DNA of 64,000 nucleotides from Delftia sp. PS-11. GTDB lineage: Bacteria; Pseudomonadota; Gammaproteobacteria; Burkholderiales; Burkholderiaceae_C. The notes under the pieces are model-generated. The model worked only from the letters and a program-made list of their open reading frames with translations, searched no databases and had not been told where the DNA came from. The translations under genes were made by a program, and so were the position numbers. Of the stretch, positions 55,194 to 63,984 are shown in pieces (the first letter of the stretch is position 1; every line of letters starts with the position of its first letter). The DNA is taken from positions 54,029-118,028 of the forward strand of contig NZ_JACSYA010000023.1 of the NCBI RefSeq assembly GCF_029870285.1, given 5' to 3'.

Positions 55194-57188
55194 TCACATG
55201 CGCCATGTCAGGCGCAGGCCGAATTCGCGCGGCGGGCTGTAGACCACGACCTGTCCGTTGAGGTAGCCCACGGCGTCATGGCGCCGGTCTGCCGCGTTGC
55301 GCAGGTAGGCAGCGATTTCCCAGGGCCCCTCGGCGTAGCCTGCCGACAGATGGAGCAGTCCGTAGCCGGGGCGGCGGTAGCTGTTGGCGGCATCCAGGTA
55401 GGCTTTGCCCGTGCCCTGCACGGCAGCCTGGGCCCACCAGCCCCGGGGGGCGTCGTAGCGCAGCGCCACATGCAGGTTCAGGTCTGGCACGAAGGGGTTG
55501 CGGTGGCCGTCATAGACGGCGGCGCCGTCGCGGAACGCGCCAAAGCGCGTGCGGTTCAGGCCCAGCGCTGCCTGCAACTGCCAGCCGCTGCCCAACACAT
55601 AGTCCAGTTCGAAGTCCGCGCCTGTGGAGCGCGCCCGCGCCGCGTTGGTGATGTAGACCACGCCCGGCAGGCCCATCTGCTGCACCTGCATGTCGCGCAC
55701 CTGCTGGGTGTAGAGCGAGGCCGCGTAGCGCAGGCGCTGGCCCGCCAGCCGGCCCTTGGCGCCGATCTCCCAGGCGCGCACGGTCTCGGGCCCGTAGGGC
55801 GCATGGCCCATGGCGGGGGAGAACACGTTGAAGCCCCCTGCGCGGTAGCCTTCGCTGAGGCTGGCGTAGACCTGGGCCTGGGGCGACCACTGGTACTGCA
55901 GCGACAGCTTGGGGCTGAAGCGTGTCCAGTCGTCGCTGTGGGCCGCCGCGCCCATGGGCGCGAGCTTGACGCGGTTGCGCTCGATGCGCCCTCCGGCGGC
56001 CAGCGTCCAGCGCTCGGCCAGGGGAATCGTCCAGTGCGTGAACAGCGCCGCCGTGCTGCCTTGGAGAGCGGCTGTGGGCCGCATCAGCGCGGCGGGCAGC
56101 CTCTGCTCGTAGCGCAGGTCGTGATCGTCGCGGTCCAGGTACAGACCCGCCAGCCAGCGGGCACCGCCCAGGGCCTGCGATTCACCTTCCAGGCGCAGCT
56201 CCTGCGAGGTCGTGGCCAGGCGGTAGTCTCGGCCCACGTGCAGCAGGTCAGCCGGCTGGAAATCCGTGTCCTGCAGCACGCGGTCGTCAAAGACATTGCG
56301 CGCGGTGATGGAGCGCAGCTTCAATCCCGAGGCGAAGCGGTGCGATACGTCGAGCGACAGCGTCTGCCCGCGCGAGCGGTTCCAACTGGATGTGCCCGAG
56401 TTCACCGTGGCGCGCGGCGCGCTGATGCTGCCCCATTGTGCGGCGCCATCGTCCCAGCGCTGCTGCGCGTAGCGCAGCGTGGCTTCGGTCTCGGCCGTGG
56501 GTGTCCAGCGCAGCGCCAGGCGGGCGCTTGCGCGCTCGCGGCTGTCCACACGCTCGCCCGTGCCCTGCTCGCGTATGAAACCGTCCTGCGCACGCCATTC
56601 GCCCGACAGGCCCAGATACCACTGACCCGGCACCAGGGCACGGCCCAGTTCGAAGCTGCCCGCACGCTGGCCCTGGTTGCCTGCCTCTGCGCTGGCCGAT
56701 GCATAGGGCGCTTCGCCGGGCTGGCGCGTGGTGATGCTGACCACGCCCGCCTCGGCATTGCGGCCGTACAGCGTGGACTGCGGGCCGCGCAGCACCTCCA
56801 CCCGGTCCACGCCCTGCAGGTTGTGCTCAAAGCCCTGGGCCATCAGCGTGGGCACGCCATCGACCAGCAGCAGCGTGGAGGATGAAAACGACACGAAGTT
56901 GGCCGTCAGCCCGCGCATCACGGGCGGCTGCACGCCCGATTGGCCAAATGCCTGGAAGCCGAAGCCCGGCACCTGGGCGGACAGGGCATCGAGCCCGCGC
57001 ACGCCGGCCGACTCCAGTGCCGTGCCGTCGAAGACGGAGACGCTGGCGGGCACGGCGTCCAGGCTCTCGGCCTGCTTGTTCACGGAAACCGTGATCACGG
57101 GCAGGGCGGCGTCGGGCGTCTGGCTCTGGGCCGCCGCTGCCAGCGGTGCCAGGGCCAGCACCGCTGGCCAGCGAAGGGGGAATGGCAT
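55194..57188 (-). CDS. TonB-dependent siderophore receptor
   Basis: The 664-aa outer-membrane receptor has a signal peptide, a TonB-box-like PVITVSV, a plug domain (VEVLRGPQSTLYGRNAEAGV with SITTR) and a beta-barrel ending in the aromatic C-terminal strand (REFGLRLTWRM; the last residue is Met rather than Phe). It should import a ferric siderophore and is of the pyochelin/yersiniabactin/pesticin receptor kind by length and context. It is the first gene of the operon, divergent from the AraC regulator, with a Fur-like box 56 nt upstream. Confidence 0.93.
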   Translation of the reverse strand: MPFPLRWPAVLALAPLAAAAQSQTPDAALPVITVSVNKQAESLDAVPASVSVFDGTALESAGVRGLDALSAQVPGFGFQAFGQSGVQPPVMRGLTANFVSFSSSTLLLVDGVPTLMAQGFEHNLQGVDRVEVLRGPQSTLYGRNAEAGVVSITTRQPGEAPYASASAEAGNQGQRAGSFELGRALVPGQWYLGLSGEWRAQDGFIREQGTGERVDSRERASARLALRWTPTAETEATLRYAQQRWDDGAAQWGSISAPRATVNSGTSSWNRSRGQTLSLDVSHRFASGLKLRSITARNVFDDRVLQDTDFQPADLLHVGRDYRLATTSQELRLEGESQALGGARWLAGLYLDRDDHDLRYEQRLPAALMRPTAALQGSTAALFTHWTIPLAERWTLAAGGRIERNRVKLAPMGAAAHSDDWTRFSPKLSLQYQWSPQAQVYASLSEGYRAGGFNVFSPAMGHAPYGPETVRAWEIGAKGRLAGQRLRYAASLYTQQVRDMQVQQMGLPGVVYITNAARARSTGADFELDYVLGSGWQLQAALGLNRTRFGAFRDGAAVYDGHRNPFVPDLNLHVALRYDAPRGWWAQAAVQGTGKAYLDAANSYRRPGYGLLHLSAGYAEGPWEIAAYLRNAADRRHDAVGYLNGQVVVYSPPREFGLRLTWRM

Positions 57189-57243
57189 GATGTTCTCGTC
57201 CTCTCCAAATGGGCATCTCGTCGGCTTTTGATGCTAGATTGGA

Positions 57244-57258
57244 TGAGAATGGGTATCA
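57244..57258. promoter_or_regulatory. Candidate Fur box
   Basis: TGAGAAT-G-GGTATCA is a 7-1-7 inverted repeat matching 11 of 14 arm bases of the Fur consensus (TGATAAT-N-ATTATCA). It lies in an AT-rich patch between the divergent receptor and AraC genes. Confidence 0.65.
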
Positions 57259-57318
57259 TTTGAAAATCTATGCGCACCGGAACATTTCGTATGCGAAGCG
57301 CGTACCCGGCCTCTGTCC

Positions 57319-58266
57319 ATGTCTGTCCGCATCCTGTCCTCGCTGGCCCTGCCACAGCCCTGCGCTCCGGGCTGGACGCGCCACGCGCTGCCTGCCGAGC
57401 TGGGCGAATGCGCTTGCGAGCGCTTTACGCTGGGCGACGGCATCGTGCTGGCGCGCTCGCACTACCGCCCGCTGCGCGACCTGGTGGAAGAAAGCGTGCA
57501 TGCCGACGGCTCGGACCAGGGCCGAACCCTGGTCATCACGCTGGGACTGGCAGGGGAGTCGGGGTTTGTCGCCCGCAGCGGGGCAGCCTTGCGCTTTGGC
57601 GTGGGACAGACGACGTTGGCGGCCTTTCGGGGCAGCCGTGGCGAGCGCCGCTATGCCGCCGGCCAGAGCGTGCGCCAGTTGCGCCTGCTGCTGTCGGGGG
57701 CGGCGCTGGACCGCTACCTGGGGCCCGAGCTGTCGCGGCGGCTGACAGACGCCGATGGCGTGCGCGCCCTGGACCGCCGCGCCAGCCTGCCCGCCAGCCT
57801 GGCACTGGCGCGGCGACTGGTCCAGCCGCCAGGGCCTCAGCCCACCGATGCGCTGGACCGCCATATCGCCATGCTGAGCCTGGCTGCGCTGGAGCTGCGC
57901 CATCTGGCGCCTGCGCCCCAGGCTCTGCCGCCCCGCTGGTCCGACGATGAACTGGCCCGGCTGGAGCAGGCGCGCGAGCTGCTGTCCGCCCAGATGGACC
58001 GTGCGCTGACGCTGGCTTACCTGAGCGCTGCTGTGGGACTGGGCGAGCACCGGCTCAAACAGGGCTTTCGCGCCGTCTTCGGCAGCACGCCCCAGGCCAT
58101 GCTGCTGGAGCTGCGCATGCGCCGTGCCTGGGCGCTGCTGGAGAGCGGCTGCCAGGTGGCGCAGGCCGGCTGGCAGGTGGGCTATGCCCATCCTTCCAAT
58201 TTCAGCGCAGCTTTCACGCGGTTTTTCGGACGCAGCCCCAAGTCGGTGTCCGGGCGGCGGTCCTGA
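57319..58266 (+). CDS. AraC-family regulator, PchR-like
   Basis: The 315-aa regulator has an N-terminal sensing domain containing LVITLGLAGESGFVARSGAA and a C-terminal AraC double helix-turn-helix: LTLAYLSAAVGLGEHRLKQG, FRAVFGSTPQAMLLELRMRR and WQVGYAHPSNFSAAFTRFFG. The layout is that of PchR, which activates ferripyochelin uptake when the ligand is bound. It diverges from the TonB receptor gene; PchR regulators sense the intracellular siderophore. This suits a system that takes up siderophores made by other bacteria. Confidence 0.88.
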   Translation: MSVRILSSLALPQPCAPGWTRHALPAELGECACERFTLGDGIVLARSHYRPLRDLVEESVHADGSDQGRTLVITLGLAGESGFVARSGAALRFGVGQTTLAAFRGSRGERRYAAGQSVRQLRLLLSGAALDRYLGPELSRRLTDADGVRALDRRASLPASLALARRLVQPPGPQPTDALDRHIAMLSLAALELRHLAPAPQALPPRWSDDELARLEQARELLSAQMDRALTLAYLSAAVGLGEHRLKQGFRAVFGSTPQAMLLELRMRRAWALLESGCQVAQAGWQVGYAHPSNFSAAFTRFFGRSPKSVSGRRS

Positions 58267-58540
58267 TCCGCTGGCAGCGGACTGGCGCATCTATGCCATG
58301 GTGCGCGCGAGGTCGGAGGCGGGGCAGTCCGGGTGGCGCGGATGGCACCATGTCACCGAAGACGGCAAAGTCCATGCCGCCGGTGTCCGTATCAGCCGCT
58401 TTGTTGCGGCACCGCAAGCTGGCCAGTGGCGGCCCTGGCCATACCCGCTCCGGGTGGAGCATGATGGATGGCCGCTTGCCGGCCGAGGCCCGAGCCAGTG
58501 CCAGGGAAGGCGGCAAAGCGTCACAACGGGAGCCATGCCA
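58267..58540 (+). other. Structured 274-nt leader upstream of nrdJ, no gene found
   Basis: No convincing coding region lies here on either strand. CATGGTGC (58297-58304) and GCACCATG (58345-58352) can pair, and several further GC-rich self-complementary segments follow (for example around 58371-58440). Because the enzyme needs adenosylcobalamin, a cobalamin riboswitch was looked for, but the canonical GCCACTG box and AATCC/CCGCAACTG elements are not clear. It may be an RNA leader or simply promoter DNA. Confidence 0.4.
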
Positions 58541-61500
58541 ATGCATCGCGAAAACCTGGGCCGCGCACAGGATGCGGCCGAACTGCAGCCCATCAGTCTG
58601 GATGTCCTGCAGGAAAAGTACCTCAAGAACGGCGAGACCGGCGTGGGCGAACTCTACGCCCGCGTGGCCCGCGCCCTGGCCTCGGTCGAGCCTGAGGCGC
58701 GCCGCGCCGAGTTCGAGGCGCTGTTCCTGGCCAACCTGCAGGCGGGCGCCATCGGCGCCGGGCGCATCATGAGCGCGGCTGGCACCGGCCTGCAGGCCAC
58801 GCTGATCAACTGCTTTGTGCAGCCTGTGGGCGATTGCATCCAGGGCCAGGACGAGGGCGGCCATCCCGGCATTTACGAAGCCCTGCGCGAAGCCGCCGAA
58901 ACCATGCGCCGTGGCGGCGGCGTGGGCTACGACTTCTCGCGCATCCGTCCCCGGGGCGCCGAGGTCCGCGCCACGGCCTCGCTGGCCTCGGGTCCGTGCA
59001 GCTACATCAATGTCTTCGACCAGTCCTGCGCCACCGTGGAAAGTGCGGGCGCACGGCGCGGCGCCCAAATGGGCGTGCTGCGCATCGACCACCCCGACGT
59101 GCTCGAATTCATCACGGCCAAGCGCACGCCGGGCCGCTGGAACAACTTCAATGTCTCGGTCGGCGTCAGCGACGCCTTCATGCAGGCCGTGGCCGAAGAC
59201 CGGCCCTGGGACCTGGTGCACCGCGCCCGCCCCGGCACCGCGCTGCGCGAGCAGGGCGCCCGCCAGCGCGAGGACGGACTGTGGATCTACCAGACCGTGC
59301 AGGCCCGCACGCTGTGGGACACCATCATGCGCTCGGCCTACGACTTCGCCGAGCCCGGCATCCTGTTCCTGGACCCTATCAACGGCGACAACAACCTGCG
59401 CTACTGCGAGGAGATCGCGGCGACGAATCCTTGTGTTACGGCGGACACCTGGGTGCTCACGGAGTCAGGGCCAGTCCAGGTGGCAGACCTCGTCGGTAAG
59501 CCATTTGGCGCCGTGGTTGACGGCCAGGTTTACGCCACTGAAAGCGCGGGCTTCTTTGCCACCGGCCGCAAGCCGGTGCTGCGGCTGACCACACGCGAGG
59601 GCCAGACGCTGCGCCTGACCGCAGACCATCTGGTGCGGCGTGTCGCTCGCCGTACGCGCCATGCGCTGCAGGCTGAATGGACTGCGGCCGCCCAACTGAG
59701 GGCAGGGGACGAGGTACTGCTGCACAACCACCGTGCGCTTCAAGGCTGGGATGGGCACGGTACCGAGGCCGAAGGCTACCTGTTGGGCCTGCTGATAGGC
59801 GATGGAACCCTCAATGCCGACAAGGCCGTGATCAGCGTATGGGCGCCCGAGCTGCGCCAGGTCGCAGGCAACGCCAGCGGTGCGGTAGCCTATGCCGCCA
59901 CGGGCTCGGCAGGCATCATGCAGGCCGCTGAGGCTGCAGCAGCCAGCTTGCGCCACCGTGCAGATTTCCGTGGATTCCAGCGGCCAGTGACGGGATGCGC
60001 AGAGGTGCGCATGGCTAGCGCCGCATTGCGCGATCTGGCGTTTGGCATGGGGATGGAGCCAGGGCGAAAGTACATCACCAAGTCCATGGAGGCGGCCTCT
60101 TGTGCATTCTCCGCAGGACTGCTGCGCGGCCTGTTTGATGCCGATGGATCAGTCCAGGGCACACAGGACAAGGGCGTGAGCCTGCGCCTGTCCCACAGCG
60201 ATTCTGAGTTGCTGCGTACCGTGCAGCGCATGCTGCTGCGCCTGGGCATGGCGTCGACGATTGATGAGAACCGTCGGCCAGCCCAACTGCGGGCAATGCC
60301 CGACGGCAAAGGGGGCCAGCGCGACTATGCAACACAGGCACAGTATGAACTGGTCATCAGCGGCGACAACCTTGGCATCTTCGCCGACCGCATAGGCTTT
60401 GCGGACACCGGCAAGGCCGAACGGCTTGAGCAGGCACTGGCCCAGTACCGGCGCACCCCGAACCGTGAGCGCTTCACTGCCACCGTCCAGGCGCTGGAGA
60501 GCGACGGCGAGGAAATGGTCTATGACGTCACGGTGGCAGACTGCCACGCCTTTGACGCCAATGGCCTGTATGTGCACAACTGCGGCGAACAGCCGCTTCC
60601 CTCCTACGGCTGCTGTGACCTGGGCCCCATCATCCTCACCCGCTTCGTGCGCCACCCCTTCGGCTTCGCCGGCGAGCCTGCGTTCGATTTCGAGGCCTTC
60701 GAGCGTGCCGTGGCCGTGCAGGTGCGTGCGCTGGACAATGTGCTGGAGCTGACCTGGTGGCCGCTGCCCCAGCAGCGCGCGCAAAGCGATGCCAAGCGGC
60801 GCATTGGCGTGGGCTTCACCGGCATGGGCAATGCCCTGGCCATGCTGTGCCTGCGCTACGACGCACCCGAGGGCCGTACCATGGCCGCGCGCATCGCCGA
60901 GTGCATGCGCGATGCGGCCTATTGCGCCTCGGTGGACCTGGCGTGCGAAAAAGGGGCCTTCCCCGAATTCGATGCCGACGGCTATCTGGCCCCGGGCACC
61001 TTCGCCAGCCGACTGCCCGAGGCACTGCGCCAGCGCATACGCGCGCACGGCATACGCAACAGCCATCTGCTGTCCATCGCGCCCACGGGCACGGTGAGCC
61101 TGGCCTTCGCCGACAACGCCTCCAACGGCATCGAGCCGCCGTTTTCCTGGACCTACAAGCGCAAAAAGCGCACGGCCGATGGCGGCAGCACCGAATACGC
61201 GGTCGAGGACCATGCCTGGCGGCTGTACCGCGCCCTGGGCGGCGATGTGGAGCAGTTGCCCGGCTACTTCGTCAATGCGCTGCAGATGCCGGCAGCGGAC
61301 CATATCGCCATGATGCAGGCCGTGCAGCCCTTCGTGGACACAGCCATCTCCAAGACCGTCAACGTGGCCGCCGACTATCCCTACGAGGACTTCAAGGACC
61401 TGTACCGGCAGGCCTGGCGCGCGGGCCTCAAGGGCCTGGCGACCTACCGGCCCAACGCCATTCTGGGCGCTGTGCTCGAAACCCATGCGCCGCCACCGGC

Positions 61501-62176
61501 CCAGCCGGCCGCGCCTGAGCCAGCCGCACCTCAGCCGGCCGCACCTCAGCCGGCCGCACCTGAGCCTGCTGCGCAGATGGCGCTGACCCCGGTGGCCGAC
61601 CCGCTGCGCACGGTGATCGAAAGCCGCCCGCAGGGCGCGCTGGATGCCGTGGCCGAGAAGATCGAGTACTGGACCCAGCAAGGCCCCAAGCGCCTGTACC
61701 TGGTTGTCTCCTTCCTGCCCGTGGCGCTGGCCGATGGCCGCACCGTGGATCGCGCCATCGAGTTCTTCATGCCCGTGGGGCAAAGCGGCGAATCGCAGCA
61801 GTGGGTGACCTCCAGCATGCGCCTGCTGTCGCTGGCCGCGCGCGGGGGCTTCCTGGAGCGCGCACTCAGCGACATGCGCAAGGTGGCCTGGGACCGGGGG
61901 CCTGTGCGCCTGGGCACGCACCGGCGCGATGACGGCACGCAGGTGCCCATGTGGCATGACTCCGAGGTGGCGGCCATCGCCTATGCGGTGCAGAACATTC
62001 TCGCGCGGCGCGGCAGCGGCGCGGCGCCAGCGCCCCAGGCCGGCCCTGTGGCGCCAGCCACCGACCCCATGGTCATGGCTGGCCGCAAATGCGGGGAGTG
62101 CGGCGCCCATGCCGTCATCCGCAAGGACGGCTGCGAGTACTGCACGGCCTGCGGTCACTTGGGCAGCTGCGGATGA
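58541..62176 (+). CDS. nrdJ: Class II (adenosylcobalamin-dependent) ribonucleotide reductase with intein
   Basis: The 1211-aa precursor holds two extein parts of class II ribonucleotide reductase and a 383-aa intein; splicing would give about 828 residues. Extein signatures are INCFVQPVGD, RRGGGVGYDFSRIRPRGAEV, NPC-GEQPLPSYGCCDLGPI across the splice site, and APTGTVSLAFADNASNGIEP. NPCGE aligns with the N-x-C-x-E active-site triad of NrdA (N437/C439/E441), so the first C-extein residue is the predicted thiyl-radical cysteine. A proline-rich spacer and a zinc-ribbon-like end (CGECGAH...CEYCTACGHLGSCG) complete the chain. Start 58541 is preferred over ATG 58535 because GGGAG is 8 nt before it. 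The enzyme makes dNTPs without oxygen dependence. Confidence 0.94.
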   Translation: MHRENLGRAQDAAELQPISLDVLQEKYLKNGETGVGELYARVARALASVEPEARRAEFEALFLANLQAGAIGAGRIMSAAGTGLQATLINCFVQPVGDCIQGQDEGGHPGIYEALREAAETMRRGGGVGYDFSRIRPRGAEVRATASLASGPCSYINVFDQSCATVESAGARRGAQMGVLRIDHPDVLEFITAKRTPGRWNNFNVSVGVSDAFMQAVAEDRPWDLVHRARPGTALREQGARQREDGLWIYQTVQARTLWDTIMRSAYDFAEPGILFLDPINGDNNLRYCEEIAATNPCVTADTWVLTESGPVQVADLVGKPFGAVVDGQVYATESAGFFATGRKPVLRLTTREGQTLRLTADHLVRRVARRTRHALQAEWTAAAQLRAGDEVLLHNHRALQGWDGHGTEAEGYLLGLLIGDGTLNADKAVISVWAPELRQVAGNASGAVAYAATGSAGIMQAAEAAAASLRHRADFRGFQRPVTGCAEVRMASAALRDLAFGMGMEPGRKYITKSMEAASCAFSAGLLRGLFDADGSVQGTQDKGVSLRLSHSDSELLRTVQRMLLRLGMASTIDENRRPAQLRAMPDGKGGQRDYATQAQYELVISGDNLGIFADRIGFADTGKAERLEQALAQYRRTPNRERFTATVQALESDGEEMVYDVTVADCHAFDANGLYVHNCGEQPLPSYGCCDLGPIILTRFVRHPFGFAGEPAFDFEAFERAVAVQVRALDNVLELTWWPLPQQRAQSDAKRRIGVGFTGMGNALAMLCLRYDAPEGRTMAARIAECMRDAAYCASVDLACEKGAFPEFDADGYLAPGTFASRLPEALRQRIRAHGIRNSHLLSIAPTGTVSLAFADNASNGIEPPFSWTYKRKKRTADGGSTEYAVEDHAWRLYRALGGDVEQLPGYFVNALQMPAADHIAMMQAVQPFVDTAISKTVNVAADYPYEDFKDLYRQAWRAGLKGLATYRPNAILGAVLETHAPPPAQPAAPEPAAPQPAAPQPAAPEPAAQMALTPVADPLRTVIESRPQGALDAVAEKIEYWTQQGPKRLYLVVSFLPVALADGRTVDRAIEFFMPVGQSGESQQWVTSSMRLLSLAARGGFLERALSDMRKVAWDRGPVRLGTHRRDDGTQVPMWHDSEVAAIAYAVQNILARRGSGAAPAPQAGPVAPATDPMVMAGRKCGECGAHAVIRKDGCEYCTACGHLGSCG
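59432..60580 (+). other. Intein with LAGLIDADG homing endonuclease, inside nrdJ
   Basis: The 383-residue in-frame insert begins with Cys1 (block A CVTADTWVLTESGPVQVADL) and has the block B TADH motif (LRLTADHLVRRV). Its two DOD endonuclease motifs are YLLGLLIGDGTLN and LLRGLFDADGSVQ. It ends with block F YDVTVADCHAFD and block G NGLYVHN, followed by Cys+1 of the C-extein. All residues needed for splicing (Cys1, T-x-x-H, penultimate His, terminal Asn, Cys+1) are present, so it is probably active. Removal restores AATNP-CGEQPLPSYGCC. It lacks the strict third-base GC preference of the flanking extein, which suggests transfer from elsewhere. Confidence 0.95.
61502..61576 (+). repeat. Five 15-bp tandem repeats coding a Pro/Ala linker in NrdJ
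   Basis: Five units of about CAGCCGGCCGCACCT (with GAG/CAG variants) encode (Q/E)PAAP repeats. They form a flexible spacer between the reductase core and the C-terminal part. Copy number could vary between strains. Confidence 0.85.
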
Positions 62177-62856: not shown

Positions 62857-63984
62857 ATGAATTTACGCTACCGAGTCGAACTGGCTGCATCCGAGCAAGA
62901 GATGCTTGGCGCACTGCTCAGCGCAGGCAAGCATGCGGCCCGCAAGATCAAACGCGCCCAGATCCTGTTTGCGGCCCATGCTGAGCAGGACAACGCACGC
63001 ATAGCCGCCACCTTGGCAGTGAGCGAATCCACCGTGTACCGAACCAAGCGCCGCTTCGTGGAGCAGGGCTTGGAGGTGGCACTGGCCGAACAGGATCGGC
63101 CAGGAGCGCAACGCAAGCTCAGCGGTAAGCAGGAGGCTTTGCTGATCGCCACCGCCTGCTCCGATCCACCGCCAGGACGGGCCCGCTGGACGCTGCAGTT
63201 GCTGGCAGATGCGCTCGTGCAGTTGAGCGAACATGAGACGCTATCGCGAGAGACTGTGCGTCGGCGCCTGGCCGAGAATGACCTCAAGCCTTGGCGCAAG
63301 GACATGTGGTGCATACCCAAAGTGGATGCCGAATACGTAGCCCGCATGGAAGATGTACTTGATCTGTACACCCAAGCGCCAGATCCACTGCAGCCCGTTG
63401 TGTGCTTCGATGAAAGCCCGACCCAGCTCATTGGCGAAGTGCGACAACCAATCCCAGCCGAGCCGGGGCAACCGTTGCGCTACGACTATGAATACAAGCG
63501 CAACGGAACTGCAAACTTGTTCGTCTTCCTGGATGCCCATCGCAATTGGCGCAAGGTGAAGGTGACCGAACGGCGAACGGCACATGACTTCGCCCAGTGC
63601 ATGCGTGATCTGGTGGATATCCACTATCCACAGGCGCAGCGCATCCGACTCGTGCTGGACAACCTCTCGACCCACACGCCCGCAGCACTGTACCGATGCA
63701 TGCCGCCAGCAGAGGCGCGTCGCATCCTGCAGCGCCTCGAATGGCACTACACCCCAAAGCACGCCAGTTGGCTCAACATGGTCGAGCTTGAAATCGGAGT
63801 GCTGCGACGCCAGTGCCTGGCTCGCCGCATCGAGTCGCGCGATCGCCTGGTGGCCGAGGTTCAAGCTTGGGAGCAACTGCGAAATGCCAGCGGCGCCCGT
63901 ATCGCTTGGATGTTCTGTACGGACAAAGCCAGGCAAACCTTGGCCAAGGCCTACCCAGTTCCCATTGCAGACAAAGCGTCATAA
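62857..63984 (+). CDS. IS630-family transposase
   Basis: The 375-aa transposase has an N-terminal HTH ([20 protein letters not shown], then RRFVEQGLE) and a DDE catalytic domain with [13 protein letters not shown] (first Asp), [15 protein letters not shown] (second Asp) and [20 protein letters not shown] (final Glu), the IS630/Tc1-mariner arrangement. The frame is intact from ATG to TAA, so it may be active. Its stop codon abuts the right inverted repeat. Confidence 0.93.

Follow-up and report, generated by a model that had tools for sequence, protein, structure and literature searches.

A probably mobile class 1 intein, of the rir1-b kind already on record, lies directly before the predicted radical cysteine of a class II ribonucleotide reductase in a Delftia-clade bacterium

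RESULTS

An intein interrupts the NPCGE motif of NrdJ

We analyzed a stretch of 64,000 nucleotides from Delftia sp. PS-11, referred to below as the window. Its nrdJ gene very probably contains a mobile intein of class 1 that belongs to the known rir1-b kind, the host being of the Delftia clade, and we infer from its residues that the element splices and cuts. The features of the gene are given below; the conservation counts refer to a set built on the best 80 of 458 loci by similarity, which is skewed to close relatives and thus biases the conservation of splicing and DOD residues upward.

58541..62176, plus strand: nrdJ, intein-bearing class II (B12-dependent) ribonucleotide reductase precursor, 1211 aa (PF02867, E 1.2e-117; TIGR02504 NrdJ_Z, 535.5 bits)
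58541..59431, plus strand: N-extein, 297 aa (part 88-298 aligned to 1xjk residues 131-322)
58811..58813, plus strand: Cys91, predicted redox-pair cysteine (aligns to T. maritima Cys134)
59432..60580, plus strand: intein, 383 aa, class 1, LAGLIDADG (PF14890, PF14528; same junction in relatives)
59432..59434, plus strand: Cys1, first splicing nucleophile (C in 81/81 distinct inteins)
59618..59629, plus strand: block B TxxH, T63 and H66 (T and H in 81/81)
59777..59806, plus strand: first DOD motif YLLGLLIGDG, catalytic D124 (D in 80/81, E in 1)
60119..60148, plus strand: second DOD motif LLRGLFDADG, D236/D238 (D236 in 81/81, D238 in 79/81)
60518..60580, plus strand: blocks F and G, VYDVTVADCHAFDANGLYVHN (D365, H372 and N383 in 81/81, H382 in 80/81)
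60581..62173, plus strand: C-extein, 531 aa (part up to residue 979 aligned to 1xjk residues 320-638)
60581..60583, plus strand: Cys+1 (C681), predicted thiyl-radical cysteine (aligns to T. maritima Cys322)
60614..60616, plus strand: Cys692, predicted redox-pair cysteine (aligns to T. maritima Cys333)

The frame is open across all 1211 codons for amino acids of ORF 58541-62176 on the plus strand, and a second in-frame ATG lies at 58535. In Pfam, the ribonucleotide reductase domains PF02867 and PF00317 (barrel and all-alpha) are split by PF14890 (Intein_splicing) and PF14528 (LAGLIDADG_3). Among the NCBIfam profiles, the class II model TIGR02504 passed its cut-off of 399.95 bits. NF005401 was the top match by E-value, yet it stayed below its own cut-off (725.5 versus 906) and was spread over two stretches. 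With C91, N296, C681, E683 and C692 all present, we assign the product to the class II ribonucleotide reductases (NrdJ), for which adenosylcobalamin-dependent activity is predicted. The NPCGE motif of Thermotoga maritima NrdJ occupies residues 320-324 (1xje/1xjk), and its Cys322, which we take to be the thiyl-radical residue, aligned to C681 of the precursor and not elsewhere, as the sequence-only reading had proposed. Cys134 and Cys333 of the T. maritima enzyme are presumably the reducing pair.

The intein is bounded by the junctions ATNP/CVTADT and LYVHN/CGEQPLPSYG (a slash marks the splice point) and thus lies between Pro297 and Cys681. Subtracting its 383 residues from the 1211 of the precursor leaves a protein of 828 aa; the coordinates and lengths given in the sequence-only reading were exact to the base. 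The residues expected of a class 1 intein (C1, T63/H66, D365, H372, H382, N383 and C+1) were all found, and PF14890 scored 36.9 bits against a cut-off of 35.8. Both DOD motifs of a LAGLIDADG homing endonuclease are likewise present, with D124 and D238 as catalytic acids and a PF14528 score of 81 bits (cut-off 22.5). The earlier statement that the intein carries the complete set of splicing residues and both DOD motifs therefore stands.

From these residues, splicing may be pictured as follows. The precursor would be inactive, the radical cysteine still being tied up at the splice junction; with Pro297 and C681 383 residues apart, an unspliced protein could hardly perform radical chemistry. Cys1 and Cys+1 would carry out the N-S shift and the transesterification, and cyclization of Asn383 would then set free an 828-aa reductase in which the NPCGE motif is intact.

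The third-position GC content (GC3) was 0.74 for the intein versus 0.86-0.89 for the exteins. No B12 riboswitch was seen; an RNA family search of the window, which returned one tRNA, gave no above-threshold match near nrdJ. Upstream of nrdJ, window positions 55194-58266 encode a TonB-dependent receptor (minus strand) and an AraC-type regulator (plus strand). A transposase with DDE_3 and HTH_32 domains, presumably IS630-like, lies at 62857-63984 in a lower-GC stretch at the window end.

The same junction is occupied in many relatives

A contig scan yielded 458 loci encoding a relative, of which the best 80 were kept. By their titles, these best 80 of 458 stem mostly from genera that we take to be Betaproteobacteria; one title reads Gammaproteobacteria bacterium, and a few go no further than Pseudomonadota or Proteobacteria. 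With own-genome and genus loci added, they make up 115 fetched loci, a set biased to close relatives, in which tblastn found the intein 87 times. A pattern search of the 115 revealed an insert at NP/C...N/C[GA]E in 87 and an uninterrupted NPCGE in 27, all from the genus, while one (the nrdA locus) had neither. Since the same junction is occupied in 87 loci and 27 genus loci read through NPCGE, the insert is not a product of chance. The 87 loci include repeats and reduce to 81 distinct inteins, that of the window among them. A protein search gave 3713 matches from 8000 scored candidates, and the best 120 of the 3713 all contained PF02867.

The survey of presence and absence among relatives that the sequence-only reading had suggested gave a patchy picture. 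Within the genus (53 genomes), an nrdJ match was found in 42 genomes (30 of these were fetched) and the intein in 3, so that 39 of the 42 have nrdJ without an intein match. Of the 53 genomes, 11 gave no nrdJ match at E <= 1e-20; among the 46 of good quality this was the case for 9. In a draw of 399 genomes from the family, 253 matched the nrdJ C-extein, and 51, distributed over 35 of 141 genera, matched the intein (E <= 1e-10). Identity was just 32-35% in seven of these 51 genomes and 28, 29 and 44% in three more. Six of the seven (L120-L123, L127, L128) carry a 374-aa intein at the same NP/C junction that ends GQ/C. Thus, two distinct intein lineages occupy this nrdJ site within one family. 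Reduced inteins of 318, 277 and 278 aa were observed at the same site in L124, L125 and L126; two of them end KN, not HN.

We also looked for carriers of a near-identical intein. There was no nucleotide match in 50,697 phage records; the best 20 of 22 records from a phage protein search, and both records from a plasmid search, showed less than 60% identity to the intein. Eight IMG/VR contigs (L130-L137) encode relatives with 34-52% identity, with NP/C at the match start in six and HN/C at the match end in seven. A close phage vector was thus found in none of the phage, plasmid and IMG/VR collections searched, and this candidate was dropped.

Intein and exteins differ in their histories

Compared with the D. 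tsuruhatensis locus L006, whose intein is identical to that of G051, the window differs at 68/1149 nucleotides in the intein, 61/891 in the N-extein and 161/1548 in the C-extein. The corresponding values for L009 are 239/1146, 113/891 and 212/1533. The intein is therefore somewhat more similar than the exteins in the first pair and less similar in the second. Synonymous divergence (dS) showed the same two directions, with 0.15 for the intein versus 0.34 for the C-extein between the window and G051, and 0.72 versus 0.43 between the window and G032. The N-extein was compared by nucleotide differences, its dS having been set aside because it included in-frame sequence lying before the start codon. 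Over 81 of 84 intein-bearing loci, those with enough extein, the median ratio of intein to extein protein distance was 1.26; the pair with L006 had a ratio of 0.92 (2nd percentile) and that with L009 a ratio of 2.09 (97th).

Of 37 strong intein splits in quick trees, 15 conflicted with strong extein splits and 14 were shared. The window, L006 and L009 cluster together in both trees, a feature compatible with vertical descent. The median omega was 0.33 (range 0.06-0.62) for the endonuclease part, defined by us as residues 113-335, and 0.32 for the splicing part, both from 656 non-independent pairs; judged by these ratios, the endonuclease part is under purifying selection. Intact unoccupied sites exist in close relatives, since G002 and G052 match the window without a difference over 30 nt on the upstream side of the insertion point and 20 nt on its downstream side. 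The intein-bearing L006 and the intein-free G001 differ at 8/891 positions in the N-extein and 51/1594 in the C-extein, and this near-identity indicates that the intein was gained or lost recently.

An intein that still splices and homes no longer, with a distribution made up of vertical descent and losses, would account for the common cluster of the window, L006 and L009 and for the 14 shared splits. We consider such a decayed resident very unlikely, as the DOD aspartates are intact, the endonuclease omega is 0.33, the intein is closer than the exteins between the window and L006, and 15 strong splits conflict. The data fit a homing intein whose history would be in part vertical and in part horizontal. 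Mobility, which the sequence-only reading had considered likely, is well supported at the sequence level: presence is patchy, close relatives have intact empty sites, the intein is closer than the C-extein between the window and G051, the trees conflict, and the endonuclease evolves under purifying selection. Most likely, the LAGLIDADG domain cleaves nrdJ alleles that lack the intein at this point, and the element would have spread by homing.

Two further lines were set aside. The codon ACG at -3 occurred in 29/81 intein-bearing versus 3/27 intein-free rows, a possible codon footprint, the empty rows being all from one genus and the comparison lacking phylogenetic control. The smallest number of intein-state changes on the extein tree was five, a count discarded because the empty sites come from one genus.

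An altered empty site in one Delftia-clade allele

The intein-free nrdJ of G001 (L117) belongs to the Delftia clade and comes close to identity with the D. tsuruhatensis gene that bears the intein. Relative to the window, L006, G002 and G052, it has private differences at 12 of 1771 extein columns, six of which lie at +5, +9, +11, +14, +15 and +17 from the insertion point; 0 of 20000 shuffles were as clustered. One of the changes near the site replaces Gln by Glu. G002 and G052, the other two intein-free clade members, are unaltered from +5 to +17. A search for a donor of the G001 stretch gave no match with <=2 mismatches in the 399 family genomes, a draw that excludes G001 and hence provides no positive control. 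We tentatively raise the possibility, doubtful as it is, that G001 represents a naturally recoded homing site, either because the allele escaped the endonuclease and so gained natural immunity to homing, or because an intein was lost there and left a scar. For this one allele, the changes may reflect evasion of cutting, a scar left by repair or by loss, micro-conversion with an unsampled donor as the source, or an error of assembly.

DISCUSSION

Role of NrdJ and retention of the intein

Contig C22 of the same genome carries nrdA (971 aa, with NLCTEI) adjacent to nrdB (402 aa), which identifies the second reductase as class I. A search of this genome for a class III NRDD came back empty, so an anaerobic role for nrdJ is possible. 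The nrdJ gene appears dispensable in the group, given the presence of nrdA/nrdB and the 11 of 53 genus genomes with no nrdJ match. For the same two reasons, the earlier claim that exact excision is under the strongest selection went too far.

We infer that the intein is retained by virtue of its insertion site: since this is a catalytic motif, it would offer a constant target, and imprecise loss would break the enzyme. A regulatory role would be unnecessary. If nrdJ is indeed dispensable, as the 11 genomes suggest, the argument from costly imprecise loss becomes weaker.

The sequence-only reading had also suggested a redox-gated switch, in which oxidation of Cys1 and Cys+1 blocks splicing and thereby controls class II reductase activity. 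Both splice nucleophiles are indeed cysteines, one of them aligned with the radical cysteine, and redox-sensitive splicing has been described for a mycobacterial DnaB intein in the consulted part of PMC6195587. Potential partners exist in Cys371 in block F of the window's intein and in an extein cysteine at -9, found in 70/84 intein-bearing rows. A conserved partner cysteine within the intein, as expected of a redox-regulated intein, was however absent from the 81 distinct inteins: Cys1 is their sole invariant cysteine, and position 371 is Cys in 12/81. The cysteine at -9 also occurs in 12 of 27 intein-free rows. Moreover, 39 of the 42 genus genomes with nrdJ show no intein match, and the second reductase NrdAB is encoded. 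The regulatory reading is thus weak, and we regard a redox switch as very unlikely, although oxidation of Cys1 and Cys+1 themselves could still take place. That nrdJ is a dead or non-splicing copy, whose loss the second reductase could make tolerable, has a very small probability in view of the open frame, the retained splicing residues and reductase residues C91, N296, C681, E683 and C692, and a C-extein omega of 0.14 (window versus G051).

Comparison with known inteins

The preferred reading, a mobile class 1 intein in nrdJ, agrees with systems on record. The consulted part of PMC4071816 lists rir1-b inteins in 2014 for Delftia acidovorans, Delftia sp. Cs1-4, Acidovorax avenae, and Acidovorax sp. 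NO-1 and CF316, with a membership of 55 bacterial, 15 halobacterial and 5 other euryarchaeal inteins. In our data, the nrdJ genes of Acidovorax NO-1 (L025) and CF316 (L029) hold an intein at the NP/C junction of the window, and with exteins of 815 and 838 residues they show no sign of a second one. The window's intein thus shares the insertion point common to the published members as far as the names NO-1 and CF316 identify them, and no difference of kind from rir1-b was seen in a match made by organism names, not by comparison of accessions, against the part of that source consulted.

The bnrdE intein of Bacillus phage SPbeta (annotated in NC_001884.1; named in the consulted part of PMC3653736) has the junctions NL/C and GN/CSE and likewise precedes the cysteine of an NxCxE motif. 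It is 27% identical to the window's intein over the whole length and differs in its host protein, a phage NrdE, and in its end, GN versus HN. The second lineage within the family shares the NP/C junction and begins CVTADT, CVTGDT or CVVGET; it differs from the window's intein in its low identity, its terminal Gln and the missing HAFDANG block. The NrdJ-1 split intein also resides in a ribonucleotide reductase near the same motif; it is split and lies one residue downstream, after NPC. An intein in the R2 subunit of Aquifex aeolicus likewise sits between active-site residues and, by the consulted part of PMC8772380, splices to yield active protein; it differs in occupying the metal-site subunit, hence another gene and site. 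RNRdb had about 80 inteins curated in ribonucleotide reductase entries by 2009, according to the consulted part of PMC2795772. That Cys+1 coincides with the radical cysteine was not mentioned in the titles and opening abstracts searched, a limited coverage of the literature that makes this result say little.

With the rir1-b allele and an intein at this position already on record, the novelty attached to the element by the sequence-only reading was overstated. Kind, allele and host clade are all known, and we have here a well-formed case, not a new phenomenon. It cleanly illustrates the rule that catalytic motifs are where inteins endure, as such a target does not change and an inexact loss destroys the enzyme. 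The Delftia clade holds intein-bearing, intact empty and apparently recoded empty alleles of nrdJ at about 1-10% nucleotide divergence. These alleles form a good natural set for tests of homing and escape, at a site where Cys+1 is also the predicted radical cysteine.
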